The notes under the pieces: generated by a model
Told to the model about the DNA's origin: nothing
The model's input: the letters and a program-made list of their open reading frames with translations, nothing else
The model's database searches: none
Origin: Piscinibacter sp.
Lineage (GTDB): Bacteria; Pseudomonadota; Gammaproteobacteria; Burkholderiales; Burkholderiaceae_C
Direction of reading: 5' to 3'
NCBI GenBank assembly: GCA_017983795.1
Contig: JAGOAS010000001.1
Coordinates: 124,001 to 188,000 of the forward strand
Length of the DNA: 64,000 nucleotides
Shown here: in pieces, positions 2 to 44,867 of the stretch
Layout: each line of letters starts with the position of its first letter
Numbering within the stretch: the stretch's first letter is position 1
Program-made: the position numbers and the translations under genes

Positions 2-622
2 CTGTCGCGGCCGCGCAGCGCCGACGAGTACCGCGCCGTGCTCGAATCGGCCGTCGAGGAGTACGAACGCCTGTCGCGGCTGATCGAGGCGATGCTGTTC
101 CTGGCGCGCGCCGACGATCCGCAGGCGGCGATCGAGCGGCGCTGGGTCGAGCTGTCGCGCCTGCTCGAATGCAGTTGCGGCTACTTCGAGATGCTCGCCG
201 AGGAGAAGGGCGTCGCGCTGCAGGTCTCGCAGCAGGGGCCGGAGCCGGCGCGCCAGCAGGTGTGGGCCGACGGCGCGCTGTTCGTGCGCGCGCTCGGCAA
301 CCTGATCAGCAATGCGCTGCGCTACGCACCGCGCGGCAGCACGGTGATGGTGTCGACGCAGCGCCTCGAAGCCGACGGCAGCGTGCTGCTCGAAGTGTCC
401 AACGAAGGCCCGGCGATCGCGCCCGAGCACCACGAGCAGCTCTTCGAGCGCAGCTTCCGCGTCGACGGCTCACGCGCCGGTTCGGCCCTCAACTCCGGGC
501 TGGGGCTGGCGATCGTCAAGTCCATCATGGACTTGCACGGTGGGCGCGTGGGTGTGCGCAGCGCGCCGGGGGAGCGCACCGTATTCAGCCTGTACTACCC
601 GGGCGCTCAGAACAGGAAGTAG
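2..622 (+). CDS. Sensor histidine kinase, heavy-metal (CusS/CopS) type, C-terminal part
   Basis: The gene runs in from before the window; the open frame begins at base 2 and ends with TAG at 620-622. What is visible is the end of the dimerisation helix (the [12 protein letters not shown] stretch typical of CusS-like kinases) followed by the catalytic ATP-binding domain: N box [10 protein letters not shown] and a G2 box [13 protein letters not shown]. The G1 box reads SNEGPAI where DNGPGI is usual, so nucleotide binding may be altered, although such variants occur in this subfamily. Family members are inner-membrane kinases that sense metals such as copper or silver and phosphorylate an OmpR-type regulator, which would lie upstream, outside the window. 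The last 16 bases overlap the ureC relic on the other strand. Confidence 0.9.
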
Positions 623-684
623 CGCTGCGCCATCGGCAGCACGCTCGCCGGCTCGCAGCTGAGCAATCGGCCGTCGGCGCGCAC
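607..684 (-). pseudogene. ureC: Remnant of the ureC 3' end (urease alpha subunit C terminus)
   Basis: On the minus strand these bases encode a 25-residue C terminus beginning [12 protein letters not shown] and ending [10 protein letters not shown], then TGA. This is the characteristic C terminus of urease alpha subunits (Klebsiella UreC also ends in [10 protein letters not shown]). Upstream on the minus strand the similarity stops abruptly near base 685, where sequence belonging to the truncated LuxR regulator begins. Only 25 of about 570 residues remain, so this is a relic left by a deletion or rearrangement. It pairs with the ureD relic at 15125-15308. Identification is from memory of the family; a BLASTX search would settle it. 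Confidence 0.78.
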
Positions 685-725
685 CCCTCGCCGAGCCGCT
701 GCTCGACTGGCTGCAGGCCCAGGCC

Positions 726-1115
726 GTGGGGCATGCCACCGGCGGCGCGGTGCAGCCGCTCACGCTGGCGCGCCATGGCCGGCGCCTCGTCGTCAAGCTG
801 CACGAGGCCAGCGCGGCCAGCGGCGGCGAAAGCGGCGGCGAGGACGAATGGCTGCTGGTGATGAGCGAGTCGTCCGACGAATCGATCATCGAAGCGCTCG
901 GTCTGGCCTTCAAGCTCACCGCGCGCGAAGCCGAAGTGCTCTATTGGGTGGTGCAGGGCAAGACCAACCGCGACATCGGCGAGATCCTCGGCACCAGCCC
1001 GCGCACGGTGCACAAGCACCTGGAGCATGTCTTCGGCAAGCTCGGCGTGGAGACGCGCACCGCGGCCGCCGGCCTGGCCGTGAGGCGCGTCAAGCAGCTC
1101 GTCGCCGGGCGCTGA
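726..1115 (+). CDS. LuxR-type response regulator, N-terminally truncated (receiver domain lost)
   Basis: A 129-residue product with a full LuxR/FixJ helix-turn-helix at about residues 62-125 ([20 protein letters not shown], then [20 protein letters not shown]). Relatives with this HTH normally carry an N-terminal receiver domain and are often found beside urea-utilisation genes. Here no receiver can be read: coding-like sequence ([10 protein letters not shown]) extends upstream of the ATG only to an in-frame TGA at 660-662, and the ureC relic abuts at about 685. The gene is therefore 5'-truncated at the rearrangement junction. It might still yield a DNA-binding fragment, or be dead. ATG at 726 is the first usable start; none has a clear ribosome-binding site. 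Confidence 0.6.
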
Positions 1116-1204
1116 ATCGGCTCAAGTTCCGGCCGCTGCGGCCGATCACACGGCGTCACCAACTCTCATCCGCGGTGGAAGTGCTGTGCCGCGTCCATGT
1201 CCCC

Positions 1205-2764
1205 ATGCGAAACAATCAGCCAGTGACCCAGCGCGAGCGTGAATTTCCTGACGGATTGACGCTTGTCTCCACCACCGATCCTCAAGGCCGCATCACCCAT
1301 TGCAATGCCGCCTTCGTGCAGGTGAGCGGCTATTCGTACGAGGAGTTGCTCGGCCAGCCGCACAACCTGGTGCGCCACCCGGACATGCCGCCGGAGGCGT
1401 TCAAGGACTTGTGGTCCACCATCGGCCACGGCCGACCCTGGTCGGGCGTGGTGAAGAACCGCTGCAAGAACGGTGACCACTACTGGGTGTTTGCCGACGT
1501 CACGCCGGTGATGGAGAACGGCAAGCCGGTCGGCTACATGTCGGTGCGCCTGAAGCCGACGCGCGAGCAGATTCAGGATGCCGAAGCGCTCTATGCCCGC
1601 GTGCGCGCCGAGCGCGACAGCGCGCGCAAGACCATCCGCCTGCACGCCGGCGGCGTGCGCCGGGTGGGCTGGATCGACTGGCCCTTCATGGTGTACCGCC
1701 TCACGCTCAGCCAGCGTTTCGCCATCGCGCTGGCGATGCTGTTCGCCATCGTCACCCTGCCGGGTTGGGCGGGCTGGCTCGGCCGGCCGCTCGGCTGGCT
1801 GGAGGCCGGGCTGCTGGCCGGCGGGCTGACCTGGTTCTCCACCTGGTTCCACTTCTCGGTGGCGCGGCGGCTCGACGAGTGCACCGAGATCGCCGGGCAG
1901 ATCGCCGGCTGCAACCTGAGCGGGCGCATGGATTACGAACCGCGCCACCCGCTGGGCAAACTGGTGCGCAACATCTGGCTGGCCAGCCTGAACATGCAGG
2001 CCATCGTCGACGACGTGCGTGCCGAGGTGCGCGGCATCACCGCCGCGGCCGGCGAGATCGCCCAGGGCAGCCGCGACCTCGCGGCGCGCACCGAGGAGCA
2101 GTCGGCCAACGTCGAGCAGACCGCCTCGGCGATGGAACAGATCAGCGCCTCGGTGCGCGAGACCGCGAGCGGCGCGCAGCAGGTCAAGAGCACCAGCGAC
2201 GCCGCGGCCGGCATGGCCGAGCGCGGCGATGCGGCCGTGCTCGAGCTGGTCAAGACCATGCAGAGCATCGAGGAGTCGTCGCGCCGCGTCGGCGAGGTGA
2301 TCCAGGTGATCGAGGGCATCGCCTTCCAGACCAACATCCTGGCGCTCAATGCCGCGGTGGAGTCGGCACGCGCCGGCGAGCACGGCAAGGGCTTCGCGGT
2401 GGTGGCCGCCGAGGTGCGCGCGCTGGCGCATCGCTCGGCCGCCGCGGCCAAGGAGATCGGCGCGCTGATCGGCAGCTCGATCGACCAGGTCGGCGACGGC
2501 GCGCAACGCGTGCGCGCCGCCGAGGAGGTGATCCGCACCGTCGTGACCTCGGTCGGCCACATCAGCGAACTGGTGCGCGGCATCAGCCACGCCACCGGCG
2601 AGCAGTCGCAGGGCGTGGGCGAGATCAACGAGGCGATGGGCCAGATCGACGAGACCACGCAGCGCAACGCCGCGCTGGCCGAGCAGGCCTCGGCCGCCTG
2701 CGACACGCTCGAGATGCGCGCCGGCACGCTGGTGCGCGCCGTGCAGATCTTCAAGATGCGCTAG
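1205..2764 (+). CDS. PAS-domain methyl-accepting chemotaxis protein (Aer-like)
   Basis: A 519-residue chemoreceptor. Residues about 15-125 are a PAS domain of the Aer type (GRITHCNAAFVQVSGYSYEE, then the NLVRHPDMP motif that follows in Aer proteins). A hydrophobic stretch at about 165-215 should anchor it in the inner membrane, followed by a HAMP-like linker and the cytoplasmic signalling domain; the conserved hairpin tip (AFQTNILALNAAVESARAGE) is near residue 372. It probably senses redox state or oxygen through a PAS-bound flavin and signals to CheA/CheW. The ATG at 1205 was chosen because the upstream in-frame extension is antisense-like and unrelated to the family. No C-terminal CheR-binding pentapeptide is visible. 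Confidence 0.93.
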   Translation: MRNNQPVTQREREFPDGLTLVSTTDPQGRITHCNAAFVQVSGYSYEELLGQPHNLVRHPDMPPEAFKDLWSTIGHGRPWSGVVKNRCKNGDHYWVFADVTPVMENGKPVGYMSVRLKPTREQIQDAEALYARVRAERDSARKTIRLHAGGVRRVGWIDWPFMVYRLTLSQRFAIALAMLFAIVTLPGWAGWLGRPLGWLEAGLLAGGLTWFSTWFHFSVARRLDECTEIAGQIAGCNLSGRMDYEPRHPLGKLVRNIWLASLNMQAIVDDVRAEVRGITAAAGEIAQGSRDLAARTEEQSANVEQTASAMEQISASVRETASGAQQVKSTSDAAAGMAERGDAAVLELVKTMQSIEESSRRVGEVIQVIEGIAFQTNILALNAAVESARAGEHGKGFAVVAAEVRALAHRSAAAAKEIGALIGSSIDQVGDGAQRVRAAEEVIRTVVTSVGHISELVRGISHATGEQSQGVGEINEAMGQIDETTQRNAALAEQASAACDTLEMRAGTLVRAVQIFKMR

Positions 2765-2883
2765 GGCTCGTCGGGCCCCAAGGCCTCCAGCGGACGCCGC
2801 CACCCCGAACGCACCGGCGCGCTGATCTGGCGCAATGCCGGCGCGCGGCGACGCGGTATCAAGCCGGGAAGGAGCCGCCAGCG

Positions 2884-4317
2884 ATGAAGTCCTTGAGTGG
2901 GGTGGATGGGGTATTTCTCCACCTGGAGACGGCGCAGACGCCGATGCATGTCGCGTCGCTGCACCTGTTCGATCTGCCGGCCGGCGTCACGGCCGATGAC
3001 TTTCTCGCCGAGGTGCGCCGGCAGATGCGCCGGCGCGTGCGCATCGCCCCGGTGCTGACGCGCAAGCTCGCGCCCATGCCGCTGCAGTTCGCCAACCCGG
3101 CGTGGGTGGAGGAAGACCGGCTTGAGTGGGCCTACCACGTGCAGCACATCCGCCTCGAGCCGCCGGGCACGCAGGCGCAGCTGGAGGAACTCGCCGGGCG
3201 GCTGCACTCCGAACTGCTCGACCGCCGGCGCCCGCTGTGGCGCATGGCGGTGATCGACGGGCTCGCGTCGGGCCAGGTGGCCTACTATTTCCAGATCCAC
3301 CACGCGGTGCTCGACGGGCAGGCCGGCGTGCTGCTCGCGCAGGCGTTGTTCGACGTGACGCCGAAGCCGCGCGCCCTGCCGCGTGCCAGGGCGACGGCGG
3401 TGGAGCACCCCGGCGTCGTCGAACTCGCCGCCGCCGCGCTGCGCCACGACGCGGCCCAGTACGTCAAGGTGCTGCGCCACCTGCCCGACGTGGCGCGCAC
3501 GCTCGCCGGGCTGATCGGCGGCCCGCCCGGCGCGAAGAAGGCAGAGGCGCCCGGAGGGCTTGGGCAGAACTTCAGCTTCGGCCCGAAGACGGCGCTGAAC
3601 GTGCCGGTCACCGGCGAGCGCGGTTTCGCCGCCGTGACGCTGCCGCTGGTCGCGCTCAAGGCGCTGGCCGAGGCTCACGAGGCCAAGCTCAACGACATCG
3701 TGCTGGCGCTGTGCGGCGGCGCGCTGCGGCGCTACCTGGCCGCGCACGGCGGCGTGCCCGACAAGCCGCTGATCGCGACCATGCCGATCTCGCTGCGCGC
3801 CAGCGGCAACACCGATTTCTCGGTGCAGGCCACGCTCAGCCTCGTGAACCTGAATACGCACATCGCCGACCCGGTGCAGCGGCTGCGCGCCATCCGCGAT
3901 GCGGCCGGCGCGATGAAGTCGCTGGCGCGGCGCGCCCGTGGCGTCATCCCCACCGACTTCCCCTCGTTCGGCACGCCCTGGCTGCTGCACGGGCTGGCGG
4001 AGCTGTACGCGCGCTCGGGCCTCGTCGAGGCGATGCCGCCCATCGCCAACCTGGTGATCTCCAACGTGCCCGGGCCGCCGGTGCCGCTGTACGCCGCCGG
4101 GGCGCGCATGACGGCCTACTGGCCGCTGTCGATCGTCGAACACGGCGTCGGCCTGAACATCACCGTGATGAGCTACGCTGGCGACATGGGATTCGGCTTC
4201 ACCACGGCGCGCAACGCGGTGCCCGACGCGCGCGAGCTCTCGATCGCGCTGCTCGCGGCGTTCGACGAACTGCTCGCGCGCAGCCCGCGCCGCACTCCTC
4301 GCGCCACCCCTCGCTGA
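2884..4317 (+). CDS. WS/DGAT-family wax ester synthase / acyl-CoA:diacylglycerol acyltransferase
   Basis: A 477-residue member of the bacterial bifunctional wax ester synthase/DGAT family, which esterifies fatty alcohols or diacylglycerol with acyl-CoA to make storage lipid at the inner membrane. The active-site motif HHxxxDG is intact as HHAVLDG at residues 139-145. The N terminus MKSLSGVDGVFLHLET matches family starts, and the C-terminal NVPGPPVPLY motif is present. AAGGAG lies about 10 bases before the ATG. A second, diverged paralogue follows after 16 bases, so the two are probably co-transcribed; whether they form a heteromer or differ in substrate cannot be told. Confidence 0.92.
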   Translation: MKSLSGVDGVFLHLETAQTPMHVASLHLFDLPAGVTADDFLAEVRRQMRRRVRIAPVLTRKLAPMPLQFANPAWVEEDRLEWAYHVQHIRLEPPGTQAQLEELAGRLHSELLDRRRPLWRMAVIDGLASGQVAYYFQIHHAVLDGQAGVLLAQALFDVTPKPRALPRARATAVEHPGVVELAAAALRHDAAQYVKVLRHLPDVARTLAGLIGGPPGAKKAEAPGGLGQNFSFGPKTALNVPVTGERGFAAVTLPLVALKALAEAHEAKLNDIVLALCGGALRRYLAAHGGVPDKPLIATMPISLRASGNTDFSVQATLSLVNLNTHIADPVQRLRAIRDAAGAMKSLARRARGVIPTDFPSFGTPWLLHGLAELYARSGLVEAMPPIANLVISNVPGPPVPLYAAGARMTAYWPLSIVEHGVGLNITVMSYAGDMGFGFTTARNAVPDARELSIALLAAFDELLARSPRRTPRATPR

Positions 4318-4333
4318 TCGACCGGGACCCTGC

Positions 4334-5725
4334 ATGCGCCAACTGAGCGGACACGACGCCAGCTTCCTCGACGCCGACACGCTGCACGCCAACGCCAACG
4401 TCACCTTCGTCCAGATCTACGACCAGAGCACGGTGCCGGGCGGCGTGCTGCGCTTCAAGACCATCCTGGCGCACATCCAGGGGCGGCTGCACCGCTCGCC
4501 GGTCTTTCGCAGCAAGCTGCTGCGCGTGCCGCTGGAGCTCGACGAACCCTACTGGGTGGAAGACGAGCAGTTCGACCTCGAGTACCACGTGCGCCACATC
4601 GCGCTGCCCAAGCCGGGCGACTGGCGCCAGTTCTGCATCCAGGCCTCGCGCATCCACGCGCGTGCGCTCGACCTGCACCGGCCGCTGTGGGAGATCTACG
4701 TCATCGAGGGGCTGGACAGCATCACCGAGCTGCCCGCCGGCAGCTTCGCGCTGCTGACCAAGATCCACCACGCCGCGATCGACGTCGAGAGCCGCAACGA
4801 GTTCATCGAGGTGCTGCACGACGCTACGCGCCGGCCGCCCAAGCCCGAGCCGGCCGAGCCCTGGTTTCCGGAGCGGCCGCCCGGGCCGGTGTCGCTGCTG
4901 CGCCGCGCCGCGCTGCACTGCCTGACCGCGCCGACGCGGCTGCTGCGGCCGCTGCGCCGCGCCGCGCCGGCCACGCTGGCCTTCGCGCGCGACCTGCTGC
5001 ACCCCGAGCGCCACCTCACGGCCACACGCTTCAACGCCGTGGTCACGCCGCATCGCGTATTCGACACGCGGCGCTTCCTGGTGGAGGAGTTCGAGGCGAT
5101 CCGCGCCCTGGTGGACGACGCCGGCATCGACGACGCCGTGCTCGCCGTGTGCGCCGGCGGCCTGCGGCGCTACCTCGCCGCGCATGCGGAGCTGCCCAAG
5201 GCCGAGCTCTGCGCCAACGTGCCGTGGACCATCGGCCTCGGCACGGACATCGAGGATCCGGTGCAACGCCTGGCGCGCATCCACGCCCAGACGGCGCAGG
5301 CGCAGCGGCCGGCGCCCGGGCGTGCGCAGCCGCTGCCGTGCTGCACCATCACCCACGTCACCGCGCCGAGCAAGACGGCCTGGCTGCACGGCGCGCGCAT
5401 GAGCTACTTCTCCGCCATCCTGCCGATCAGCGACGGCATGGGCCTGGTCTTCGCGGTCACCTGCTACGACGGCCGCATCGTCGTCTCGCCCACCTCATGC
5501 CGCGAGCTGATGCCCGACCCGCAGTTCTTCACGCAGTGCCTGCGCGACAGCTTCCAGGAGTACCTGGCGCTGGCGCGGGCCGACGGACGGCCCGCTAGAA
5601 CCGCAGCCGCTCGTGCGTCAGCATCCGATAGGGCCAGGCCATCGGCCCGGACGGCTGGAAGCGCCGCCACGCGCCCTCGGGCTGCGCCAGCCGGTCGGCA
5701 ACGATCCACAGCACCACGGCGTTGA
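4334..5725 (+). CDS. WS/DGAT-family acyltransferase paralogue with altered motif and antisense tail
   Basis: A 463-residue paralogue of the preceding gene, starting MRQLSGHDASFLDADT. The catalytic motif reads HHAAIDV (residues 145-151): the two His and the Asp are kept but the final Gly is Val. The middle is shorter than in the paralogue and the NVPGP motif is not obvious, so activity may differ. Family similarity appears to end near residue 420 (EYLALARADGR). The remaining 43 residues are Arg/Ala-rich and lie antisense to the 3' end of the hydrolase gene (131-bp overlap). A stop at 5596-5598 in the next frame suggests that a small indel removed the original end. The acyltransferase assignment is sound; activity is uncertain. 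Confidence 0.85.
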   Translation: MRQLSGHDASFLDADTLHANANVTFVQIYDQSTVPGGVLRFKTILAHIQGRLHRSPVFRSKLLRVPLELDEPYWVEDEQFDLEYHVRHIALPKPGDWRQFCIQASRIHARALDLHRPLWEIYVIEGLDSITELPAGSFALLTKIHHAAIDVESRNEFIEVLHDATRRPPKPEPAEPWFPERPPGPVSLLRRAALHCLTAPTRLLRPLRRAAPATLAFARDLLHPERHLTATRFNAVVTPHRVFDTRRFLVEEFEAIRALVDDAGIDDAVLAVCAGGLRRYLAAHAELPKAELCANVPWTIGLGTDIEDPVQRLARIHAQTAQAQRPAPGRAQPLPCCTITHVTAPSKTAWLHGARMSYFSAILPISDGMGLVFAVTCYDGRIVVSPTSCRELMPDPQFFTQCLRDSFQEYLALARADGRPARTAAARASASDRARPSARTAGSAATRPRAAPAGRQRSTAPRR

Positions 5726-6407
5726 AGCCCAGGCCCACGTGGCTGCCTGGCACGCGGATGTTCTCGTGCCAGGCCGGATCGCCCTCGATGGTGGCTTCCT
5801 GCGGCGGCACCACGCCGTCGCCGAGCGAATAGAGGCAACTCAGCGGCACGGGCAGCTGCTTGTGCTCGCGCAGCTTCTTGGCGCGCGGCTGCATGGCGTG
5901 CGCGGCCGGGCCCATCGGGTGGGCGATCAGCCGGTACATCGCTTTGACCAGTGGCGGCGAGGCGCTGCCTTCCGGATCGACGCTGATCGGGCTGCCCATG
6001 GTGATGACGCAGCGCACGCATTCCGGCGCCTGGTGCGCGCCGTACATCGCGAACACGCCGCCCAGGCTCCAGCCCACCAGGCTGACCTTGCGGCCGGTCT
6101 TGTGGTGCAGGTAGCGGATCTTCTGTTCGAGCGCGGTGGCGTGTCGGGCGTGGAAGCCGATGTTGCGCCCCAGGCCCCAGGTCTCGACGGCATAGCCGCG
6201 GTTGCGCAGGAACAGCTCGAGCGCGATCAGCGTGGCCTCGCTGCCCATGAAGCCGGGCAGCAGCAGCACCGGGTGGCCGTCGCCGCGCGGTGCCGTGGCC
6301 AGCGCCGGCAGTGACCAGGGCAGCGCCGCGGCCTCGAACAACGCGCGTGCCTCGAGCAGCGAGTAGGCCGTCTTGGGCCGGCCGGTGTGGGGGTATCGCT
6401 TGACCAT
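5595..6407 (-). CDS. Alpha/beta hydrolase (PhaC-like or lipase-like)
   Basis: A 270-residue alpha/beta hydrolase. The nucleophile elbow GWSLGG puts the catalytic Ser at residue 114, and the oxyanion-type segment LLLPGFMGS is at about 48-56. A downstream Asp (SLGDGVVPP) and a His (VPGSHVGLGF) complete a plausible triad. The GWSLGGVFAM sequence and the layout resemble PHA synthase/depolymerase-like or lipase class proteins more than haloalkane dehalogenases; the substrate is unknown. The neighbouring WS/DGAT genes suggest a role in neutral-lipid turnover (inference). ATG at 6407 is preferred; an in-frame ATG three codons upstream is possible. Its last codons overlap the tail of the convergent acyltransferase gene. 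Confidence 0.88.
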   Translation of the reverse strand: MVKRYPHTGRPKTAYSLLEARALFEAAALPWSLPALATAPRGDGHPVLLLPGFMGSEATLIALELFLRNRGYAVETWGLGRNIGFHARHATALEQKIRYLHHKTGRKVSLVGWSLGGVFAMYGAHQAPECVRCVITMGSPISVDPEGSASPPLVKAMYRLIAHPMGPAAHAMQPRAKKLREHKQLPVPLSCLYSLGDGVVPPQEATIEGDPAWHENIRVPGSHVGLGFNAVVLWIVADRLAQPEGAWRRFQPSGPMAWPYRMLTHERLRF

Positions 6408-6436
6408 GCCCCGCATGGTGCACGAAGCGCTGCGCC

Positions 6437-6452
6437 TACGCCACCTTGCGTA
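6437..6452. promoter_or_regulatory. Palindromic operator TACGC-N6-GCGTA upstream of urtA
   Basis: The sequence TACGCCACCTTGCGTA is a 5+5 inverted repeat 76 bases before urtA. A nearly identical copy sits before urtC (11418-11433). In both, a CACCTAAC/GAACCTAG element that could be a -10 region follows about 20 bases later, which would centre the palindrome near -41, the usual place for a class II activator. The protein that binds is unknown; a LuxR-family urea regulator is a reasonable guess. Confidence 0.5.
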
Positions 6453-6528
6453 TTGGGCGAACGCGAGGGCGCACCTAACCTGCGGGCAGCCCGGGATCCA
6501 CCCGGAACAACCGCCAGGAGCCTCGCCC

Positions 6529-7806
6529 ATGAAGACCACCCGCCGCAACGCCTCGAAGTCGCTCACCGCGCTGGCCGCCATCGCCTGCACGATGGGCCTG
6601 CCCAGCATCGCCCGCGCGGCCGACACCATCAAGGTCGGCATCCTGCATTCGCTCTCGGGCACCATGGCCATCTCCGAGACCGTGCTCAAGGACGTGGCCC
6701 TGATGACGATCGAGGAGATCAACGCCAAGGGCGGCGTGATGGGCAAGAAGCTCGAGCCCGTCGTCGTCGACCCGGCCTCGAACTGGCCGCTGTTCGCCGA
6801 GAAGGCCAAGCAGCTGATCGACCAGGACAAGGTGGCCGTGACCTTCGGCTGCTGGACCAGCGTGAGCCGCAAGTCGGTGCTGCCGGTGTTCGAGGAGAAG
6901 AACGCGCTGCTGTTCTACCCGGTGCAGTACGAGGGCGAGGAGCTCAGCAAGAACGTCTTCTACACCGGCGCCGCGCCCAACCAGCAGGCGATTCCCGCCG
7001 TCGAGTACCTGATGAGCAAGGACGGCGGCTCGGCCAAGCGCTTCGTGCTGCTCGGCACCGACTACGTCTACCCGCGCACCACCAACAAGATCTTGCGCGC
7101 CTTCCTCAAGAGCAAGGGCGTCGCCGAGGCCGACATCATGGAGGACTACACGCCCTTCGGCCACAGCGACTACCAGAGCATCATCGCCAAGATCAAGAAG
7201 TTCGCCTCCGAGGGCAAGAAGACCGCGGTGGTGTCGACCATCAACGGCGACTCCAACGTGCCCTTCTACAAGGAGCTCGGCAACCAGGGCCTGAAGGCCA
7301 CCGACGTGCCGGTGGTGGCCTTCTCGGTGGGCGAGGAGGAGCTGCGCGGCGTCGACACCAAGCCGCTGGTGGGCCACCTGGCGGCGTGGAACTACTTCAT
7401 GTCGATCAAGAGCCCGGCCAACACCGCGTTCGTCAAGCAGTGGAGCGATTACGCCAAGGCCAAGGGCATCCCCGGCCACAAGGACAAGCCGCTGACCAAC
7501 GACCCGATGGAAGCCACCTACCTCGGCATCCACATGTGGAAGCAGGCGGTGGAGAAGGCCAAGAGCACCGACAGCGACAAGGTGATCGCGGCGATGGCCG
7601 GCCAGACCTGGCCCGCGCCGGGCGGCTTCATGTCGACCATGGACAAGGAGAACCACCACCTGCACAAGCCGGTGTTCATCGGCGAGATCAAGGCCGACGG
7701 CCAGTTCAACGTGGTGTGGAAGACCAAGGGCCCGGTGGTGGCCGACCCGTGGAGCGACTACATCCCCGAGAACAAGGGCAAGAAGAACGTCCCCGAGAAG
7801 AAGTGA
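6529..7806 (+). CDS. urtA: Urea ABC transporter substrate-binding protein
   Basis: A 425-residue periplasmic binding protein of the UrtA/FmdD family (hydrophobic amino acid/amide type I fold). It captures urea or short-chain amides and delivers them to UrtBC. The precursor has a cleavable signal (residues 1-30, with an RRNASK stretch compatible with Tat export). Family hallmarks are visible: VGILHSLSGTMAISE, the GCWTSVSRKSVLPVFEE segment and LLFYPVQYEGEE. ATG at 6529 follows AGGAG and gives the usual length. It is the first gene of urtABCDE, preceded by the TACGC/GCGTA palindrome. No urease gene survives in this window, so the real substrate or its fate is open. Confidence 0.95.
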   Translation: MKTTRRNASKSLTALAAIACTMGLPSIARAADTIKVGILHSLSGTMAISETVLKDVALMTIEEINAKGGVMGKKLEPVVVDPASNWPLFAEKAKQLIDQDKVAVTFGCWTSVSRKSVLPVFEEKNALLFYPVQYEGEELSKNVFYTGAAPNQQAIPAVEYLMSKDGGSAKRFVLLGTDYVYPRTTNKILRAFLKSKGVAEADIMEDYTPFGHSDYQSIIAKIKKFASEGKKTAVVSTINGDSNVPFYKELGNQGLKATDVPVVAFSVGEEELRGVDTKPLVGHLAAWNYFMSIKSPANTAFVKQWSDYAKAKGIPGHKDKPLTNDPMEATYLGIHMWKQAVEKAKSTDSDKVIAAMAGQTWPAPGGFMSTMDKENHHLHKPVFIGEIKADGQFNVVWKTKGPVVADPWSDYIPENKGKKNVPEKK

Positions 7807-7807
7807 A

Positions 7808-9412
7808 GTGAGCCTGCGTAGCGGTTTTGTCCGGCTCGCTGCCGCGGCGCTGCTCGGCGTGCTGGCGCCCGCATGGGCCCTCACGCCCGAGCAGGCGCGC
7901 GGCATCGCCAGCGGCGACGGCGACGAGCGCATCGAGGCCTTGAACCACGCGGTGGCCGCCGGCGCCGAAGGGCTCGCGCCCTTCGTGCAGGCGCTGCTCG
8001 ACGATGCGGTGAAGGTGGCGGGCGAGCAGGTGTTCGTGCTGCAGGGCGACAAGGCGGTGGATGCCGCCACCGGTGCGCCGGCCACGCTGCCGGCCGAGGC
8101 CGAAGACGTGGTCGTCAACAACCGCGTGCGCGGCGCGCTGCAGGCCGCGCTCGCCTCGCTGCAACTGCTCTCGCCCGAGCTCGCGCTGCGGCGCGCAGCG
8201 GTGGCCGAGCTGCTCGAGCAGTCGCTCGACGAGGCGCAGCTGCCCTTGCTCGACAAGGCGCTGGCCGCCGAGAGCGACGCCGCGCTGAAGGAATCGCTGG
8301 AGCGCATGCGCGCCACCATCCTCGTGGCCTCGCCCGACAAGGCCAAGCGCCTCGCCGCCATCGCCGCGCTCGCGGGCAGCCGCCAGAGCGCGGTGGCGAG
8401 CCTGCTGCAGGAGCGTCTTGCCCCGAATTCGCCGGATGCAGAGACCGATGCCGAGGTGCGCGCCGCGCTCGGCAGCGCGCTCGATGCAGTGCGCTCGCGC
8501 CTGGCCTGGGGCGAGCGCATCGGCGTGATCTTCACCGGCATCAGCCTCGGCTCCATTCTGCTGCTGGCGGCGCTGGGCCTGGCCATCACCTACGGGCTGA
8601 TGGGCGTGATCAACATGGCGCACGGCGAGCTGCTGATGATCGGCGCCTACGCCACCTACCTGGTGCAGAACCTCTTTCGCCAGTTCCTGCCGGGCGCCTT
8701 CGACGCGTACATCGTGGCGGCGATTCCCGCGGCCTTCCTGGCCTCGGCGCTGGTCGGCGCGGCGATGGAGCGCAGCGTCATCCGCTGGCTCTACGGCCGG
8801 CCGCTGGAGACGCTGCTGGCCACCTGGGGCATCAGCCTGGTGCTGATGCAGGGCGTGCGCTCGCTGTTCGGCGCGCAGAACGTGCCGGTGGAGAACCCGG
8901 CCTGGCTGTCGGGCGGCATCGCGGTAATGAGCAACCTCACGCTGCCCTGGAACCGCATCGCCATCATTGCCTTCGCGGCGCTGGTGCTGGCGGCCGTGGC
9001 GCTGCTGATCGCGCGCACGCGGCTGGGCCTGTTCGTGCGCGGCGTGACGCAGAACCGCCGCATGGCCTCCTGCGTGGGCGTCGACACCGCGCGCGTCGAC
9101 ACCTACGCCTTCGCGCTCGGTTCGGGCATCGCCGGCCTGGGCGGCTGCGCGCTCTCGCAGATCGGCAACGTCGGGCCCGATCTGGGCCAGAGCTACATCG
9201 TCGACAGCTTCCTGGTCGTCGTGCTCGGCGGTGTCGGCCAGCTCGCCGGCACCGTCTACGCCGCGCTCGGCCTGGGCGTGCTCAACAAGCTGCTCGAAGG
9301 CTGGGCCGGCGCGGTGCTGGCCAAGATCATGGTGCTCGTCTTCATCGTGATCTTCATCCAGAAGCGGCCGCAGGGCATCTTCGCGATGAAGGGCCGGAGT
9401 GCCGAGGCATGA
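7808..9412 (+). CDS. urtB: Urea ABC transporter permease UrtB
   Basis: A 534-residue inner-membrane permease. As in other UrtB proteins, an unusual N-terminal extracytoplasmic helical domain of about 230 residues (after a signal-like segment, residues 1-25) precedes a LivH-type transmembrane domain with the motif GLAITYGLMGVINMAHGELL. The start is GTG at 7808, one base after the urtA stop, so the two are tightly coupled. The expected next gene, urtC, is displaced by about 2 kb: a REP-like palindrome and an antisense helicase gene separate them. Transport of urea should still be possible if urtC-E are expressed from their own promoter. Confidence 0.95.
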   Translation: MSLRSGFVRLAAAALLGVLAPAWALTPEQARGIASGDGDERIEALNHAVAAGAEGLAPFVQALLDDAVKVAGEQVFVLQGDKAVDAATGAPATLPAEAEDVVVNNRVRGALQAALASLQLLSPELALRRAAVAELLEQSLDEAQLPLLDKALAAESDAALKESLERMRATILVASPDKAKRLAAIAALAGSRQSAVASLLQERLAPNSPDAETDAEVRAALGSALDAVRSRLAWGERIGVIFTGISLGSILLLAALGLAITYGLMGVINMAHGELLMIGAYATYLVQNLFRQFLPGAFDAYIVAAIPAAFLASALVGAAMERSVIRWLYGRPLETLLATWGISLVLMQGVRSLFGAQNVPVENPAWLSGGIAVMSNLTLPWNRIAIIAFAALVLAAVALLIARTRLGLFVRGVTQNRRMASCVGVDTARVDTYAFALGSGIAGLGGCALSQIGNVGPDLGQSYIVDSFLVVVLGGVGQLAGTVYAALGLGVLNKLLEGWAGAVLAKIMVLVFIVIFIQKRPQGIFAMKGRSAEA

Positions 9413-9422
9413 CGTATGGATT

Positions 9423-9492
9423 CCGTTCGGGCTGAGCTTGTCGAAGCCCGCCGCGTGCCCCACCAGGCCTTCGACAGGCTCAGGCCGAACGG
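9423..9492. repeat. REP-like interspersed palindrome
   Basis: A 70-bp element whose ends are inverted: CCGTTCGGGCTGAGC at the left and GCTCAGGCCGAACGG at the right, with TTGTCGAAG and CTTCGACAG as inner arms. A second copy with the same arms lies at 58212-58295. This arm sequence is a common dispersed palindrome in Burkholderiales (family knowledge). Here it marks the left edge of the segment that splits urtB from urtC, and could also act as a transcription terminator for urtAB. Confidence 0.85.
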
Positions 9493-9501
9493 ATATGGCC
9501 G

Positions 9502-11373
9502 TCAGGCTGCCGCCGCGAACCCCGCGCTGACGGCCGCGAGCGACTTGCGCACACGCTCCACGATCGGTGAACGGCCGTGCGCCGCGAGCACCAGTTCGCG
9601 GGTCGATCGGGTCATGGCGACGTAGAGCAGCCGCACCGCCTCTTCGAGCGACTCGTCGCGCATGGGCAATGCCTGCAACCCCGCGACGATCACGACGGGA
9701 AACTCCAGGCCCTTGGCGCTGTGCATGGTCAGCAGCTTGACGCTGGGGAAAGACCAGTCGAAGCGCTTGAACGCCTGGGCGTTCATCGACTGGTATGCGA
9801 TGCCACGCTCGGCCAGGGTGGCCTCGACGGCCTTCATCAGATACTTGGCGCGCAGCAGAATGGCGATATCGCTCGGGGCGTGGCCCGCCGCGAGCGCAGC
9901 GGCCACGCGGTCGGCAACGAGTGTTGCCTCTTCGCGTTCATGGCGCGCCTCGATCAACACCGGCAGCGGCCCGCGCCGCCCGGCCGTCGCCGGCGTCACG
10001 CGCTGGATCTCGTCTTCGCCCCGCTCTTCGGCCTGCAGCAAAGATTCGGCACAGTGCATCGCCAGCGCCAGAACCTCCGCCGTATTGCGATAGTTCAGCT
10101 TCAGGATGCTGGTGCGCCCGCTCGCCTTGATGCCGACGCTGGCGAAGCTGAAGCGGCGGCGCTGCTTCTGGTAGATCGATTGCGCGTCGTCGTAGAGCAC
10201 GAGCAGGCTCTGCGTGGCGGGTGAAACCATGCGCGCCGCCATGCGCAGCCAGGCTTCCTCGAAATCGTGTGCCTCGTCGATCAGCAGGGCGCTGTACTGG
10301 CCCGCCGGCACGCGGCCGGTGTCGACGGCGCGGCAGGTCGAGTCGGCCAGCGCTGCGAAGTAGGCATCGCCCTTCAGGTCGCGCGGCACATCCAGTTGGT
10401 AGCTGCGCACCATGTCCTGGCACCAGGAGTGGAAGGTGCGAACCTGCACGCGCTCGTCCACCCCGCGCTCGCGCAGCAGGGCGTCGATGCGATCGGCCAG
10501 CGTGCGGTTGAAGCACAAGACCAGGATGGGCTGGTCGGGCCGCACGGCCTTCGCCAACTGCTCGGCGCGGTAGATCAAGATCATCGTCTTGCCCGAGCCG
10601 GCGGCGCCGTGGATGACGCGGTGACCCTCACCGAGCGTGCGTGCGATCTGCTCCTGCTGCAGATCCATCACCTGCAACAGGTCGGGGAGCACAGGGGCAG
10701 ACGCCGCGGCGTCGGGCTCGTCGAGTCCGAGCGCACGCTGCACGGGCACGCGGATCTCCGGGAAGAGATGCCAGCGGACACGATCGCGCTGCGGCAGCGT
10801 CAGCGTGTGCGGGTAGTGCACGGTGAACATGCCCCACAGGCGCTGCTGGAACACATCCGGCGCGACCTCATCGCCGAGGTCGTCGCGCAGCAGCGACTGG
10901 TGCGGCGCGAACACATCGGCGAAATCGGTGTCCTGGAGTTCAGCGCCGCGGAGATTCGAGAACACCACGCCCCAGCCGTAAGGGAAGAGCAGCTTTCCTC
11001 GGAACGGCCCCTCCGCATGCACGAGGGTCGGGTCGGTCGACATCAGATCGACCAGTTCCAGGGCGTAGTCGCGCGCCTGGCGCAGCGGATTGCCCTCGGT
11101 CACCATGCCGCGCTCGGTGGCCAGCGTCACGCTGTCGCGGGTCGCGCCCTGCAGGGTCGAACGCTTCCAGTGCTTGACCTCGAGCAACAACACGCCCCAG
11201 CGCGGGCTCAGCACCACGAAGTCGGGCTGCCGGGCGCGCGGGCCGATGGGCACGTTGTGCCAGACGATGTAGTCGTCTTCCAGGCAGCGCTTGAGTTGTC
11301 GCAGCACGGCGCGCTCGCCGGCATTGGCGCAACGCTGGTCGATGTGGGTCAGTCCCTGCGGAAAGAGAGCCAT
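9502..11373 (-). CDS. NERD-domain UvrD/Rep-like helicase
   Basis: A 623-residue protein. Residues about 15-120 look like a nuclease-related NERD domain (QPDFVVLSPRWGVLLLEVKHW has the D...EVK nuclease pattern). The rest is superfamily 1 helicase: Walker A GAAGSGKT near 255, motif II LLIDEAHDF near 367, Q/R-rich motif III, and the C-terminal motifs LLTMHSAKGLEFPVVIVAGL and RLLYVAMTRSTREL. It probably acts in DNA repair or defence-linked DNA processing; the exact role is unknown. ATG at 11373 is chosen; the 47-codon upstream extension crosses the urtC promoter. It is antisense between urtB and urtC, an unusual place that suggests insertion into the operon. Confidence 0.9.
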   Translation of the reverse strand: MALFPQGLTHIDQRCANAGERAVLRQLKRCLEDDYIVWHNVPIGPRARQPDFVVLSPRWGVLLLEVKHWKRSTLQGATRDSVTLATERGMVTEGNPLRQARDYALELVDLMSTDPTLVHAEGPFRGKLLFPYGWGVVFSNLRGAELQDTDFADVFAPHQSLLRDDLGDEVAPDVFQQRLWGMFTVHYPHTLTLPQRDRVRWHLFPEIRVPVQRALGLDEPDAAASAPVLPDLLQVMDLQQEQIARTLGEGHRVIHGAAGSGKTMILIYRAEQLAKAVRPDQPILVLCFNRTLADRIDALLRERGVDERVQVRTFHSWCQDMVRSYQLDVPRDLKGDAYFAALADSTCRAVDTGRVPAGQYSALLIDEAHDFEEAWLRMAARMVSPATQSLLVLYDDAQSIYQKQRRRFSFASVGIKASGRTSILKLNYRNTAEVLALAMHCAESLLQAEERGEDEIQRVTPATAGRRGPLPVLIEARHEREEATLVADRVAAALAAGHAPSDIAILLRAKYLMKAVEATLAERGIAYQSMNAQAFKRFDWSFPSVKLLTMHSAKGLEFPVVIVAGLQALPMRDESLEEAVRLLYVAMTRSTRELVLAAHGRSPIVERVRKSLAAVSAGFAAAA

Positions 11374-11417
11374 CGCTTGTTCTTCGATTCTTCTCGGACG
11401 ACTGTAGCCCATGCGTC

Positions 11418-11433
11418 TACGCCAACTTGCGTA
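11418..11433. promoter_or_regulatory. Palindromic operator TACGC-N6-GCGTA upstream of urtC
   Basis: TACGCCAACTTGCGTA, one base different in the spacer from the site before urtA, 38 bases before the urtC start and within the 98-bp divergent region shared with the helicase gene. The repetition at both interrupted halves of the transporter operon supports a functional operator/activator site that gives urtCDE its own promoter. Confidence 0.55.
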
Positions 11434-11471
11434 TGGCTTGCGCGGCAGTGTGAACCTAGTCTCGACCCTCG

Positions 11472-12593
11472 ATGAGTGTCGTCCTGCCCGCCTCCGCGCC
11501 ACTGCCGCCGCCAACGCGGCTGCTCTCCCCGCCCGCCTGGGGTGGCGTCATCGCCGCGCTGCTCGCCGTCGCCGTGCTGGCGCCGCTGCTCAACCTCGTC
11601 GTGCCCGAGGGCAGCGTGTTCCACCTGAGTGACTTCGCCGTGGCGCTGCTGGGCAAGATCATGTGCTACGCGATCTGCGCGCTGGCGTTGGACCTGATCT
11701 GGGGCTACACCGGCATCCTCTCGCTCGGCCACGGCCTGTTCTTCGCGCTCGGCGGCTACGCGATGGGCATGTACCTGATGCGCGAGATCGGGCGCGACGG
11801 CCAGTACCGCGCCGACATGCCCGACTTCATGGTGTTCCTCAACTGGAAGGAATACCCCTGGCACTGGGCCTTGAGCGACAGCTTCGCCTTCCAGATGGCG
11901 ATGGTGCTGCTGGTGCCCGCGCTGCTGGCCTTCGTTTTCGGCTTCTTCGCCTTCCGCTCGCGCATCAAGGGCGTGTACTTCTCCATCATCACGCAGGCGA
12001 TGACCTACGCGGCGATGCTGCTCTTCTTCCGCAACGAGACGGGCTTCGGCGGCAACAACGGCTTCACCGACTTCAAGCGGCTGCTCGGCATCCCGATCGC
12101 CACGCCGGCCACGCGCATGGCGCTGTTCGTGATCACCGGCCTGGTGCTGATCGGCTTCTACCTGCTCGCGCGCTTGCTCGTGGCCAGCAAGTTCGGCCGC
12201 GTGCTGCAGGCCATCTGCGATGCCGAGAGCCGCGTGATGTTCACCGGCTACGACCCCATCCGCTACAAGCTGACGATCTGGGTGATCTCGGCGGTGATGT
12301 GCGGCATCGCCGGCGCGCTCTACGTGCCGCAGGTGGGCATCATCAACCCGGGCGAGATGAGCCCGGCCGCCTCCATCGAGATGGCAATCTGGGCCGCGGT
12401 GGGCGGGCGCGGCACGCTGATCGGCCCCATCGTCGGCGCCTTCTTCGTCAACGGCGGCAAGAGCGTGTTCACGCAGTACTTCCCCGAGTTCTGGCTCTAC
12501 GTGCTGGGCGCGCTGTTCATCGCGGTGACGCTGTTCCTGCCGCAGGGCATCGTCGGCCTGTTCCGGCGCGCGAACAAGGAGGAGGGATCGTGA
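11472..12593 (+). CDS. urtC: Urea ABC transporter permease UrtC
   Basis: A 373-residue LivM-type membrane permease, the partner of UrtB. Features typical of UrtC are visible: LIWGYTGILSLGHGLFFALGGY, a long loop after helix 3 (YRADMPDFMVFLNWKEYPWHW) that distinguishes UrtC from LivM, and RNETGFGGNNGFTDF. There are roughly ten hydrophobic segments. The ATG at 11472 has only a weak upstream Shine-Dalgarno. Its stop overlaps the GTG of urtD. It is preceded by its own palindrome-bearing promoter region because the helicase gene separates it from urtB. Confidence 0.95.
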   Translation: MSVVLPASAPLPPPTRLLSPPAWGGVIAALLAVAVLAPLLNLVVPEGSVFHLSDFAVALLGKIMCYAICALALDLIWGYTGILSLGHGLFFALGGYAMGMYLMREIGRDGQYRADMPDFMVFLNWKEYPWHWALSDSFAFQMAMVLLVPALLAFVFGFFAFRSRIKGVYFSIITQAMTYAAMLLFFRNETGFGGNNGFTDFKRLLGIPIATPATRMALFVITGLVLIGFYLLARLLVASKFGRVLQAICDAESRVMFTGYDPIRYKLTIWVISAVMCGIAGALYVPQVGIINPGEMSPAASIEMAIWAAVGGRGTLIGPIVGAFFVNGGKSVFTQYFPEFWLYVLGALFIAVTLFLPQGIVGLFRRANKEEGS

Positions 12594-13471
12594 CCCCGGA
12601 GCTGATGCAGGCGGGCGCGAAGATCCGCGAGGAACACCAGAAAGTCGTCGAGGCCAGGGCAGTGTCGGGTGCGGCGAGCTATGGCCGCGTGGTCCGGCCC
12701 GGCGAGGTGGATACCGCGCACGGCGCCATCCTCTACCTCGACGACATCACGGTCAGCTTCGACGGCTTCAAGGCGCTCAACGCGCTGTCGCTCTCGATCA
12801 GCGCCGGCGAACTGCGCTGCATCATCGGCCCGAACGGCGCCGGCAAGACGACGATGATGGACGTCATCACCGGCAAGACGCGCCCCGACGCCGGCCGCGC
12901 CTTCTTCGGCTCGACCATCGATCTGCTGCGCCTGCGCGAGAACGACATCGCCGCCATCGGCATCGGCCGCAAGTTCCAGAAGCCGACGGTGTTCGAGCAG
13001 CTCTCGGTGTTCGAGAACCTCGAGCTGGCGCTCAAGACCGACCACGGCGTGCGCGCCTCGATGTTCTTCCGCCTGAGCGGCGCGCAGCTCGACCGCATCG
13101 GCGAGGTGCTGGCGCTGATCCACCTGAAGGCGAGCGCGCAGCGCAGCGCCGGGCTGCTCAGCCACGGCCAGAAGCAGTGGCTGGAGATCGGCATGCTGCT
13201 GATGCAGGATCCGAAGCTGCTGCTGCTCGACGAGCCCGTCGCCGGCATGACCGACGAGGAGACCGAGCGCACCGCCGAGCTCTTCCTCTCGCTGGAAGGC
13301 AGCCACTCGCTGGTGGTGGTGGAGCACGACATGAGCTTCATCGGCGCGCTGACGCAGGGCCGCGCCGACAAGAAGGTGACGGTGCTGCACGAGGGCAGCG
13401 TGCTGGCCGAGGGTTCGCTGAAGGACGTGCAGGCGAACGAGAAGGTCGTCGAGGTCTACCTCGGCCGATGA
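12590..13471 (+). CDS. urtD: Urea ABC transporter ATP-binding protein UrtD
   Basis: A 293-residue cytoplasmic ATPase of the LivG type. Walker A GPNGAGKTT is near residue 86 and Walker B LLLLDEPVAG near 208. The signature sequence reads LLSHGQKQWLEIGMLL, the form normal for UrtD. It powers urea uptake together with UrtE. GTG at 12590 overlaps the urtC stop (GTGA); an internal ATG at 12605 is an alternative. The N-terminal extension of about 40 residues before the nucleotide-binding domain is somewhat long for the family. Confidence 0.94.
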   Translation: MTPELMQAGAKIREEHQKVVEARAVSGAASYGRVVRPGEVDTAHGAILYLDDITVSFDGFKALNALSLSISAGELRCIIGPNGAGKTTMMDVITGKTRPDAGRAFFGSTIDLLRLRENDIAAIGIGRKFQKPTVFEQLSVFENLELALKTDHGVRASMFFRLSGAQLDRIGEVLALIHLKASAQRSAGLLSHGQKQWLEIGMLLMQDPKLLLLDEPVAGMTDEETERTAELFLSLEGSHSLVVVEHDMSFIGALTQGRADKKVTVLHEGSVLAEGSLKDVQANEKVVEVYLGR

Positions 13472-14175
13472 GCGAGCACACCATGCTGAAGGTCGACGGC
13501 ATCCACCAGTACTACGGCGGCTCGCACATCCTGCGCGGCGTCGGCTTCGAGGCGAAGGCCGGCGAGGTGACCGTGGTGCTGGGCCGCAACGGCGTGGGCA
13601 AGACCACGCTGCTCAAGGCGCTGATGGGCGTGGTGCCGGTGAAGGCCGGCACGATCCGCCTGGACGGCCAGGACATCACGCGCGACAGCCCCTTCGCGCG
13701 CGTGCGCAAGGGCGTGGGCTACGTGCCGCAGGGGCGCGAGATCTTCGGCCGCCTCACGGTGGAGGAGAACCTGCGCATGGGCCTGGCCTGCAAGCCGGGC
13801 GGCACGCCCATTCCGGCCGAGCTGTTCGAGCTCTTCCCGGTGCTCGAGCAGATGATCGGCCGGCGCGGCGGCGATCTCTCCGGCGGCCAGCAGCAGCAGC
13901 TCGCCATCGCGCGCGCGCTCGCCGCCGCGCCCAGGCTGCTGATCCTCGACGAGCCGACCGAGGGCATCCAGCCCAGCATCATCAAGGACATCGGCCGCGT
14001 GATCCGCATGCTGGCCGCGCGCAAGACCATGGCCATCGTGCTGGTCGAGCAGTACTACGACTTCGCCGCCGAGCTGGCCGACCAGTACCTGCTGATGGAG
14101 CGCGGCGAGATCGTGCAGCGCGGCCGCGGCGCGACGATGGAGCGCGAGGGCGTGCGCGAGCGCATGGCGATCTGA
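13468..14175 (+). CDS. urtE: Urea ABC transporter ATP-binding protein UrtE
   Basis: A 235-residue LivF-type ATPase, the second motor subunit of the urea transporter. Walker A GRNGVGKTT, signature LSGGQQQQLAIARAL and Walker B LLILDEPTEGIQPS are all intact; the TEGIQP variant is characteristic of UrtE. The ATG overlaps the urtD stop by ATGA, as is usual for the operon. Only 14 bases separate its stop from that of the convergent NorF-like gene. In many Burkholderiales ureD-ureABC would lie nearby; here only a ureD fragment remains about 1 kb further on. Confidence 0.95.
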   Translation: MSEHTMLKVDGIHQYYGGSHILRGVGFEAKAGEVTVVLGRNGVGKTTLLKALMGVVPVKAGTIRLDGQDITRDSPFARVRKGVGYVPQGREIFGRLTVEENLRMGLACKPGGTPIPAELFELFPVLEQMIGRRGGDLSGGQQQQLAIARALAAAPRLLILDEPTEGIQPSIIKDIGRVIRMLAARKTMAIVLVEQYYDFAAELADQYLLMERGEIVQRGRGATMEREGVRERMAI

Positions 14176-14189
14176 GCGGGGCAGCCGCG

Positions 14190-14456
14190 TCAGCGCGAGC
14201 CGAGATGCAGGGCCACGACGGCGAGGATCACCAACAGCAGCCAGCCGACGACGAAGCGGCGCCACACGGCCGGCGCGCCGCGCAGCTCCATGAAATCGAG
14301 CGCGATGGCCAGGCCCTTGAACAGCGACAGGCCGAAGACCGTGAGCAGCGGCCAGAGCGGCACCGTCCACAGCCCCGTCTCGCCGATCCACCAGGAAGCC
14401 GCGGTGGCCGCCAGCATGGCCCACCACAGCCTGTCGATGCGCTGCGCGGCACTCAT
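14190..14456 (-). CDS. Small membrane protein, cytochrome c oxidase subunit IV / NorF-like
   Basis: An 88-residue protein with three predicted membrane segments (residues about 10-30, 32-50 and 65-85). It resembles the short subunit IV/NorF proteins encoded next to NorE-type subunit III proteins. In denitrifiers NorEF is needed for full nitric oxide reductase activity; in others the pair accompanies oxidases. The ATG overlaps the upstream NorE-like stop by ATGA, so the pair is co-translated. No catalytic norB/norC or cox genes are in view, so assignment rests on size, topology and the partner. Confidence 0.75.
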   Translation of the reverse strand: MSAAQRIDRLWWAMLAATAASWWIGETGLWTVPLWPLLTVFGLSLFKGLAIALDFMELRGAPAVWRRFVVGWLLLVILAVVALHLGSR

Positions 14457-15061
14457 CGCAGCACGTACACCAGCGGGAACAGCACGACCCAGAGCAGGTC
14501 GACCATGTGCCAGAACGCCGTCACGGTTTCCGGCGCGTGCGTGTTGCCGCCCTTCCACCCGCGCCGCGGCGCCAGCCAGGCGATGCCCGACAGCAGCAGC
14601 ACGGCGGCCAGCACGTGCATGAAGTGGAAGCCCGTCAGCAGGTAGTAGAAGGTCCAGAAGGTGTCGGTATCCAGGTCGTAGCCGGCGCGCACCTTGGCCC
14701 GGTATTCGAGGCTCTTGAGCAGCAGGAATCCGACGCCGAAGCCTGCCGCGCCCCACAGCCAGCGGGCGCCGCGGCGCGCCGTGCCGCCGCGCAGCGCCTG
14801 CACCCCGCGCGCCGCGCACCAGCTGCCGGTGAGCAGCAGCGCGGTGTTCGCGGCGCCGAGATGCAGATCCAGCGTCGCCTGCCCGGCGTGGAAGACCGAG
14901 GGCTCGCGCATCCGGGCGAACGAGAAGACGATGAACATCAGGCCGAAGGTCAGCATCTCGATGCCGATGATCAGCCACATCGCGAGGTCGCCGGCGAGGC
15001 GGGTGTCCTGGCGCGCCGATGCCGGCCAGGCGGCCGATGCGGTGGTGGTGTCTGCGGACAT
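14453..15061 (-). CDS. Cytochrome c oxidase subunit III family protein, NorE-like
   Basis: A 202-residue membrane protein with about five hydrophobic helices and subunit III landmarks: LAMWLIIGIEMLTFGLMF, LLLTGFHFMHVLAAVLLL and AFWHMVDLLWVVLFPLVYVL. Its length fits NorE-type accessory subunits rather than the seven-helix CoxC. NorE helps nitric oxide reductase or oxidase assembly and function in the inner membrane. ATG at 15061 is preferred; a TTG at 15103 would add 14 residues but runs into the palindrome that probably controls the operon. The palindrome at 15106-15122 suggests NO-responsive repression. Confidence 0.82.
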   Translation of the reverse strand: MSADTTTASAAWPASARQDTRLAGDLAMWLIIGIEMLTFGLMFIVFSFARMREPSVFHAGQATLDLHLGAANTALLLTGSWCAARGVQALRGGTARRGARWLWGAAGFGVGFLLLKSLEYRAKVRAGYDLDTDTFWTFYYLLTGFHFMHVLAAVLLLSGIAWLAPRRGWKGGNTHAPETVTAFWHMVDLLWVVLFPLVYVLR

Positions 15062-15105
15062 CTCGGCGGGCCCAGGCTGCGGCGGCCCTGCAAGCGTGTT
15101 CAAAG

Positions 15106-15122
15106 AAGCATTATGAATGCTT
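15106..15122. promoter_or_regulatory. NsrR-like palindrome upstream of the norEF-like pair
   Basis: AAGCATT-ATG-AATGCTT is a perfect 7+7 inverted repeat. In its wider setting, AAGAAGCATTATGAATGCTT followed by ATT, it matches most positions of the NsrR consensus (AAGATGCATTT-N-AAATGCATCTT type). NsrR is an iron-sulfur Rrf2 repressor released by nitric oxide. The site is 45-61 bases before the NorE-like start codon. No nsrR gene is in the window. Confidence 0.5.
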
Positions 15123-15124
15123 AT

Positions 15125-15308
15125 TCAAGGGGCGGGCTTGCGCAGGAGCAAGCCGCCGGGCGGATGCACCAGCACGTGGTGGCAGATGGCTGGCCCTTCG
15201 GGAGTAGAGACAGCGCAGCACGCGCAGCGGGCCGTCGTGGCGGTGGTGGGCTTGCGTGCTGTCGCCGTCGCGGGGGTGGTCGAGTTCGAGTCGGCCGTGC
15301 CAGCCCAT
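15125..15308 (-). pseudogene. ureD: Frameshifted 5' fragment of ureD (urease accessory protein)
   Basis: Reading from ATG at 15308 the minus strand gives MGWHGRLELDHPRDGD and then HRHDGPLRVLRCLYS, matching the start of betaproteobacterial UreD (urease nickel-insertion chaperone). At about 15203-15206 one extra base shifts the frame; the next frame continues the expected sequence PEGPAICHHVLVHPPGG. Similarity ends near 15150 at a small perfect hairpin (15135-15154), and the shifted frame stops at 15125-15127. About 60 of roughly 280 codons remain. With the ureC tail at 607-684 it indicates loss or relocation of the urease operon. Identification is by recognition of the conserved N-terminal pattern. 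Confidence 0.78.

Positions 15309-43076: not shown

Positions 43077-44867
<1,791 letters not shown>

Follow-up and report, generated by a model that had tools for sequence, protein, structure and literature searches.

An intact urea transporter between relics of ureC and ureD in a Piscinibacter genome, probably left over from a recent loss of urease

Operons for urease and for the urea ABC transporter adjoin one another in many lineages, as described in the accessible portion of PMC3098086. Linked urt/ure loci of this kind, in Burkholderiales as well as in other bacteria, have the same five-subunit Urt transporter and the same UreE, UreF, and UreG accessory proteins as the genome described here, which differs from them in being without UreA, UreB, UreC, and UreD. 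A urea transporter without urease is also on record in nitrifiers: the available part of PMC10753782 gives Nitrosomonas mobilis Ms1 and N. europaea ATCC 19718 as having utp present and ure genes absent. The likeness extends to the transporter without its enzyme; however, the Nitrosomonas utp product is a different type of transporter from the ATP-driven Urt, and that part of the same source describes no accessory genes or relics for these cases (PMC10753782). For a genome that retains urt and ureEFG without ureABC, word searches of open-licence literature found no description within the portions of the papers available, PMC5767232, PMC10753782, PMC3098086, PMC12342949, and PMC13296017 among them.

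The genome in question comprises 4.24 Mb in 45 contigs (99.73% complete, 0.01% contamination). The whole stretch of DNA analyzed, hereafter the window, is 64,000 nucleotides long and corresponds to bases 124001-188000 of one 459,688-base contig. Among named records, those closest to its UrtA belong to Burkholderiales in the Piscinibacter/Leptothrix/Sphaerotilus group. Seven genomes served for comparison within the genus (G001 to G007, with G007 as the sister genome), and the ureC and ureD ends stand on a single contig in G001, G003, G004, G005, and G006 and on separate contigs in G002 and G007. A survey of the family took in 299 genomes, each scanned for UreC, UrtA, and UreF, with the window's own genome as G000. 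The features of the locus are as follows, in window coordinates and with their supporting matches.

38..622, plus strand: sensor histidine kinase, C-terminal part (HATPase_c 1.7e-23)
607..687, minus strand: ureC relic, the last ~25 codons of the urease alpha subunit (UreC search and DNA identity)
687..1115, plus strand: LuxR-type response regulator, truncated (GerE 3e-17, no Response_reg)
1205..2764, plus strand: PAS-MCP chemoreceptor between luxR and urtA (MCPsignal 2e-47, PAS)
2905-4317 and 4334-5725, plus strand: two WS/DGAT acyltransferases (WS_DGAT_cat 2.5e-59 and 4.6e-50)
5595..6429 (start approximate), minus strand: alpha/beta hydrolase (Abhydrolase_6 1.7e-5, slightly under the curated cut-off)
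6529..7806, plus strand: urtA, urea-binding protein (TIGR03407, 596.9 bits against a cut-off of 492.75; 94% at the amino acid level to G005)
7808..9412, plus strand: urtB, permease (TIGR03409, 425.1 against 250.3)
9502..11376 (ORF open to 11514, likely start 11376), minus strand: NERD/UvrD-type helicase (UvrD_C 7.5e-26, NERD 2e-16)
11472..12593, plus strand: urtC, permease (TIGR03408, 448 against 296.2)
12590..13471, plus strand: urtD, ATPase (TIGR03411, 373.8 against 304.1)
13483..14175 (ORF start possible at 13468), plus strand: urtE, ATPase (TIGR03410, 343.5 against 285.8)
14190..15103, minus strand: cytochrome oxidase subunit III-like and IV-like genes (COX3 1.1e-8, COX4_pro 2.2e-11)
15149..15308, minus strand: ureD relic, the first ~52 codons with a frameshift (same-genus DNA comparison and alignment)
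18010..18963, minus strand: AraC-type regulator (HTH_18, AraC_binding_2)

All five transporter proteins, UrtA to UrtE, exceed their curated NCBIfam cut-offs and have no internal stops, and by sequence they qualify as members of the Urt family. The usual uninterrupted urtABCDE run is broken by the helicase gene, which parts urtAB from urtCDE on the opposite strand, an unbroken layout not being required for membership. Because the sister genome, whose urease persists, has the same helicase-urtC junction, the helicase insertion looks older than the loss of urease. A scan of 11300-11560 for one promoter type found no sigma-70-like promoter before urtC. Of the columns that never vary among 83 homologues, UrtA retains all 214. 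Among solved proteins, AmiC (1pea), an amide sensor, is a much poorer match to it than 8hic, 7s6f, and 7s6e, whose names describe urea-binding proteins, and than 8tg1, whose name goes no further than extracellular ligand-binding receptor. Because only two of its residues are unique to this genome among 84 sequences, UrtA gives no sign of a new specificity, and nothing that we saw points to a changed transport substrate for Urt.

The accessory genes are in similar condition. About 4.5-6.4 kb to the left of the window (locus L108, roughly -6427 to -4460 in window coordinates) stand intact ureG, ureF, and ureE, a full-length set of three: UreG reaches 322.6 bits with TIGR00101 (cut-off 204.2), UreE reaches 248.5 bits with NF009762 (cut-off 221), and UreF, which has no NCBIfam match, reaches 141.9 bits with PF01730 (cut-off 23.3) and was also recovered in the genome scan. 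Across the eight Urt and UreEFG proteins, counted after homologues under set identity and coverage thresholds had been dropped, a single invariant column departs, at residue 249 of UrtC, which keeps 134 of its 135.

Urease itself is represented by two scraps. One is the 3' end of ureC, its stop codon at 607-609 on the minus strand. The 593-aa UreC protein of the sister genome has a single match in this genome, at C45:124610-124699 on the minus strand (window 610-699), covering UreC residues 564-593 at 77% identity (E 2.3e-7), and the DNA from 602 or 609 to 684 or 685 is 84-90% identical to ureC 3' ends in G001 and G003 to G007, among the matches listed. The other is the 5' end of ureD, with a start codon at 15308 and a similarity that stops near 15149; positions 15146-15345 are 80-88% identical at the DNA level to the ureD start region in all seven same-genus genomes. 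Chance matches, considered as an explanation of the relics, are ruled out by the single UreC match and by synteny. Pfam profiles miss both scraps because the UreD and urease-alpha models do not cover the ends that survive, the former beginning at residue 45 of the G005 protein and the latter corresponding to residues 21-145 of G007 UreC. Their intact partners are full-length open frames, UreD in 7/7 same-genus genomes and UreC in each of the six whose ureC stretch was compared. A preliminary description of this DNA had placed relics of ureC and ureD on either side of an intact urtABCDE set, and the UreC match, the DNA identity, the synteny, and the NCBIfam cut-offs confirm it.

Searches of the whole genome returned zero profile matches at E<=1e-3 to UreC (PF00449), UreD (PF01774), or UreA (PF00547), the last of which was found in both same-genus genomes searched. 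The genome-wide search comprised UreA, UreC, and UreD, with UreB (PF00699) outside it, and scraps are all that it leaves of the urease structural subunits and UreD. These results bear out the earlier proposal that urease was lost while Urt, whose five proteins are intact, was kept, and they do not support its alternative, a urease moved elsewhere in the genome. The description of the urease operon as decayed was overstated, as ureEFG survive intact. Other routes fare no better. The carboxyltransferase domain of urea carboxylase (CT_A_B, PF02626), by which urea amidolyase was judged with allophanate hydrolase outside the search, has 0 matches here and was found in 6 of 14 control genomes, so the suggested urea amidolyase route lacks its domain. 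Formamidase/acetamidase (FmdA_AmdA, PF03069), the one amidase searched for and the marker used for short-chain amide utilization, is absent from the genome and present in both relatives searched, G001 and G007; together with the fully conserved invariant columns of UrtA, this speaks against the idea that Urt now serves another amide.

Relatives reveal what the locus has lost. Their order runs from rne through ureG-ureF-ureE and ureC-ureB-ureA on the minus strand to sensor kinase-luxR-urtABCDE on the plus strand, and then to ureD on the minus strand, some kilobases beyond urtABCDE; the sensor kinase is of hybrid type, with HisKA, HATPase_c, and receiver domains (G006). All five same-genus genomes in which a single contig contains both ends share the ureC-luxR-urtABCDE-ureD order and relative orientation, with ureC and ureD full-length and open. 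The preliminary description had called for a comparison with sister species, and intact ureC and ureD in the same order are what that comparison found. Our genome lacks the stretch between the final codons of ureC and the central part of luxR. In G001, G003, G004, G005, and G006, this stretch measures 6533-6927 bp and contains ureA and ureB, almost the whole of ureC, the sensor kinase, and the LuxR receiver domain. What remains of luxR is its DNA-binding half, with the receiver domain lost and a deletion junction at ~686. The full-length relative in G001 has Response_reg at residues 11-122 and GerE at 254-308, and the luxR DNA from 669 or 687 onward is 85-87% identical in 7/7 same-genus genomes. 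At the ureC stop codon, a sensor kinase has been inserted that is missing from the syntenic place in the sister genome, where the ureC end follows directly. Its whole ORF of 504 aa runs from -892 to 622, starting 892 bases left of the window, and its last codons overlap the ureC relic on the opposite strand. At the other end, about four fifths of ureD is gone and the oxidase III/IV-like genes now adjoin the stump; by comparison with the relatives, at least one further rearrangement appears to have removed most of the gene.

We consider it likely that urease was lost recently and in this lineage specifically, by deletion and rearrangement, and that the surviving genes are leftovers and not a new urea pathway. 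A deletion of ~6.5-6.9 kb would have removed ureA and ureB together with nearly all of ureC, as well as the sensor kinase and the half of LuxR that contains the receiver, and at least one further rearrangement would have taken most of ureD, with ureEFG and urtA to urtE left intact, most simply as remnants of a recent loss. Because urease could no longer be assembled, the conversion of imported urea to ammonia through urease or urea amidolyase would be impossible. Native regulation of the locus has probably been lost too, because the sensor kinase and the receiver are gone. In 27 of the 58 named relatives with ~10 kb of upstream sequence, a DNA-binding domain homologous to that of the LuxR-type regulator precedes urtA in the same orientation, which suggests a urea-linked two-component system.

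Divergence of the relics is as expected from a recent loss: at codon positions 1 and 2, over columns conserved in all relatives compared, they are not detectably faster-diverging than urtCDE (4/131 changed versus 28/1527, p 0.31, with short relics and low power). Third positions changed in 3/46 cases in the relics, 20/520 in urtCDE (p 0.42), and 11/263 in ureEFG (p 0.45). Pairwise dN/dS against the same-genus genomes is ~0.18-0.55 for urt and 0.05-0.43 for ureEFG. In a three-way comparison of nonsynonymous to synonymous changes along the lineage, which for urt covers urtC, urtD, and urtE only, few genomes enter and no relaxation was seen, either in urtCDE (15.5:13.5 versus 18.75:21.25 in the sister genome, p 0.81) or in ureEFG (2:9 versus 14:23, p 0.29). 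The control genes rne and HAD had 9.5:9.5 versus 8.5:25.5 (p 0.07), if anything more nonsynonymous change on the branch of our genome.

Unrelaxed urtCDE and ureEFG also fit continued use. One could propose that selection maintains Urt, along with UreEFG, for a purpose independent of urease, such as the import of a different amide, the recapture of urea, or the handling of nickel by UreEFG. All eight proteins are intact with their conserved residues kept, as this proposal expects, neither gene set shows relaxation, and ureEFG changed less than the relics at positions 1 and 2 (9/953 versus 4/131), a difference that is not significant (p 0.06). Yet FmdA is missing too, no urea carboxylase domain is present, the two unique residues of UrtA give no hint of altered specificity, and no selection signal reached significance; we regard the proposal as unlikely. 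The relics are too short, or too recently freed, to reveal whether selection holds urt and ureEFG. A bolder version, which strikes us as quite improbable, has Urt and UreEFG selected for an undescribed role, with an importer of urea or small amides supplying an unknown consumer and UreEFG acting as nickel chaperones for another enzyme. If that were true, a new enzyme would be indicated, since none of the known enzymes of urea and amide breakdown covered by the search is present.

The division of the genome into 45 contigs and the many lineage-specific insertions at the locus could be taken to mean that the apparent loss is an artefact of assembly or mis-binning and that the living organism has a complete urease. 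This is very hard to reconcile with two scraps that lie within one contig, with conserved synteny on either side, with a ureD scrap that has its own frameshift, and with the lack of any UreA, UreC, or UreD match on any contig of a genome so nearly complete and so little contaminated; we hold such an artefact to be very improbable. The preliminary description had also supposed that a single ureD...ureC operon was disrupted when the urt block entered it by insertion or inversion. The relics that flank the block do lie on the same strand, but because order and orientation are the same in 5/5 same-genus genomes, where both genes are full-length and open, the block stands in its ancestral place, older than the genus, and the deletions are what is new. 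We give that supposition almost no credence. It is possible that an older insertion parted ureD from ureABC before the genus arose, an event that would have left the ureC and ureD frames open.

The family survey indicates how often comparable states occur. Among the 299 genomes, 237 have a UreC match, 241 a UreF match, and 223 a UrtA above the cut-off. Four of the UreC matches are weak (E 2.4e-6 to 3.4e-4, in G036, G087, G166, and G188) and may be other amidohydrolases. The 62 genomes without a PF00449 match consist of 20 listed and 42 derived as the complement of the positives. At E<1e-148, used as a proxy for the curated cut-off, UrtA is present without UreC in eight (G000, G011, G034, G047, G123, G150, G229, and G246), three of them at least 90% complete (G000, G011, and G034); G188 (98% complete, UrtA 8.6e-154, no UreF) is added if its weak UreC match is discounted, and the UreC-less G015 (UrtA 1.5e-117) and G275 (4.3e-106), with intermediate matches, were left out of the count. 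UreF at E<1e-15 occurs without UreC in 5/299 (G000, G015, G150, G246, and G327), and only G000 among these is at least 90% complete; weaker UreF matches in G017, G216, G233, G293, and G306 (E 3e-5 to 7.2e-4) were left out. The combination of urt and UreF without UreC is rare in this family sample, each ingredient being known. G011 resembles our genome in having Urt without the urease alpha subunit but differs in that a urea carboxylase-type protein adjoins urt (L124:13083-16814, CT_A_B 1.2e-96), a domain that our genome is without. In G034, an assembly of 340 contigs without a UreC or UreF match, urtDE-ureD is followed by a penicillin-binding protein gene (L126:1-6631).

The locus is a genuine, if fairly unremarkable, example of a pathway in the course of being lost. 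It offers a clean snapshot of the dismantling of a nitrogen pathway, in which a single missing stretch accounts for the enzyme and its sensor and the importer and nickel-insertion helpers have been spared, and it can serve to test in what sequence the parts of a pathway disappear. It also calls for caution in annotation, as urtABCDE plus ureEFG read as "urea utilization" can mislead, and surveys that use ureG, ureF, or urtA as markers would score this genome as ureolytic.

Other genes across the locus have varied histories. The chemoreceptor is shared with the sister genome (86% identity to G007:C51 over 672-2752), and the acyltransferase pair (2905..5725) has no syntenic match above 100 bits in the same-genus stretches compared. 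The alpha/beta hydrolase is likewise a point in which the locus departs from its relatives. The oxidase III/IV-like pair sits between urtE and the ureD relic, its matches in relatives lie elsewhere (G007:C148 and G005:C1:891793), and no oxidase subunit I was present among the ORFs scanned nearby. The AraC-type regulator directly adjoins ureD in G001, G003, and G005, has its best match on a different contig in G004 and G006, and is separated from the ureD relic in the window by ~2.7 kb of inserted DNA. Known RNA switches gave no Rfam match in the window at the gathering threshold. Farther to the right, 26181-35340 is a urate/purine catabolism cluster with an allantoinase PuuE, a Urate_ox_N protein, a xanthine permease, and an OHCU decarboxylase fused to an allantoate amidohydrolase-like domain that scores under the fusion model's cut-off, and a glyoxylate carboligase lies at 43077. 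The amidohydrolase route of purine breakdown would yield ammonia, not urea, at that step.
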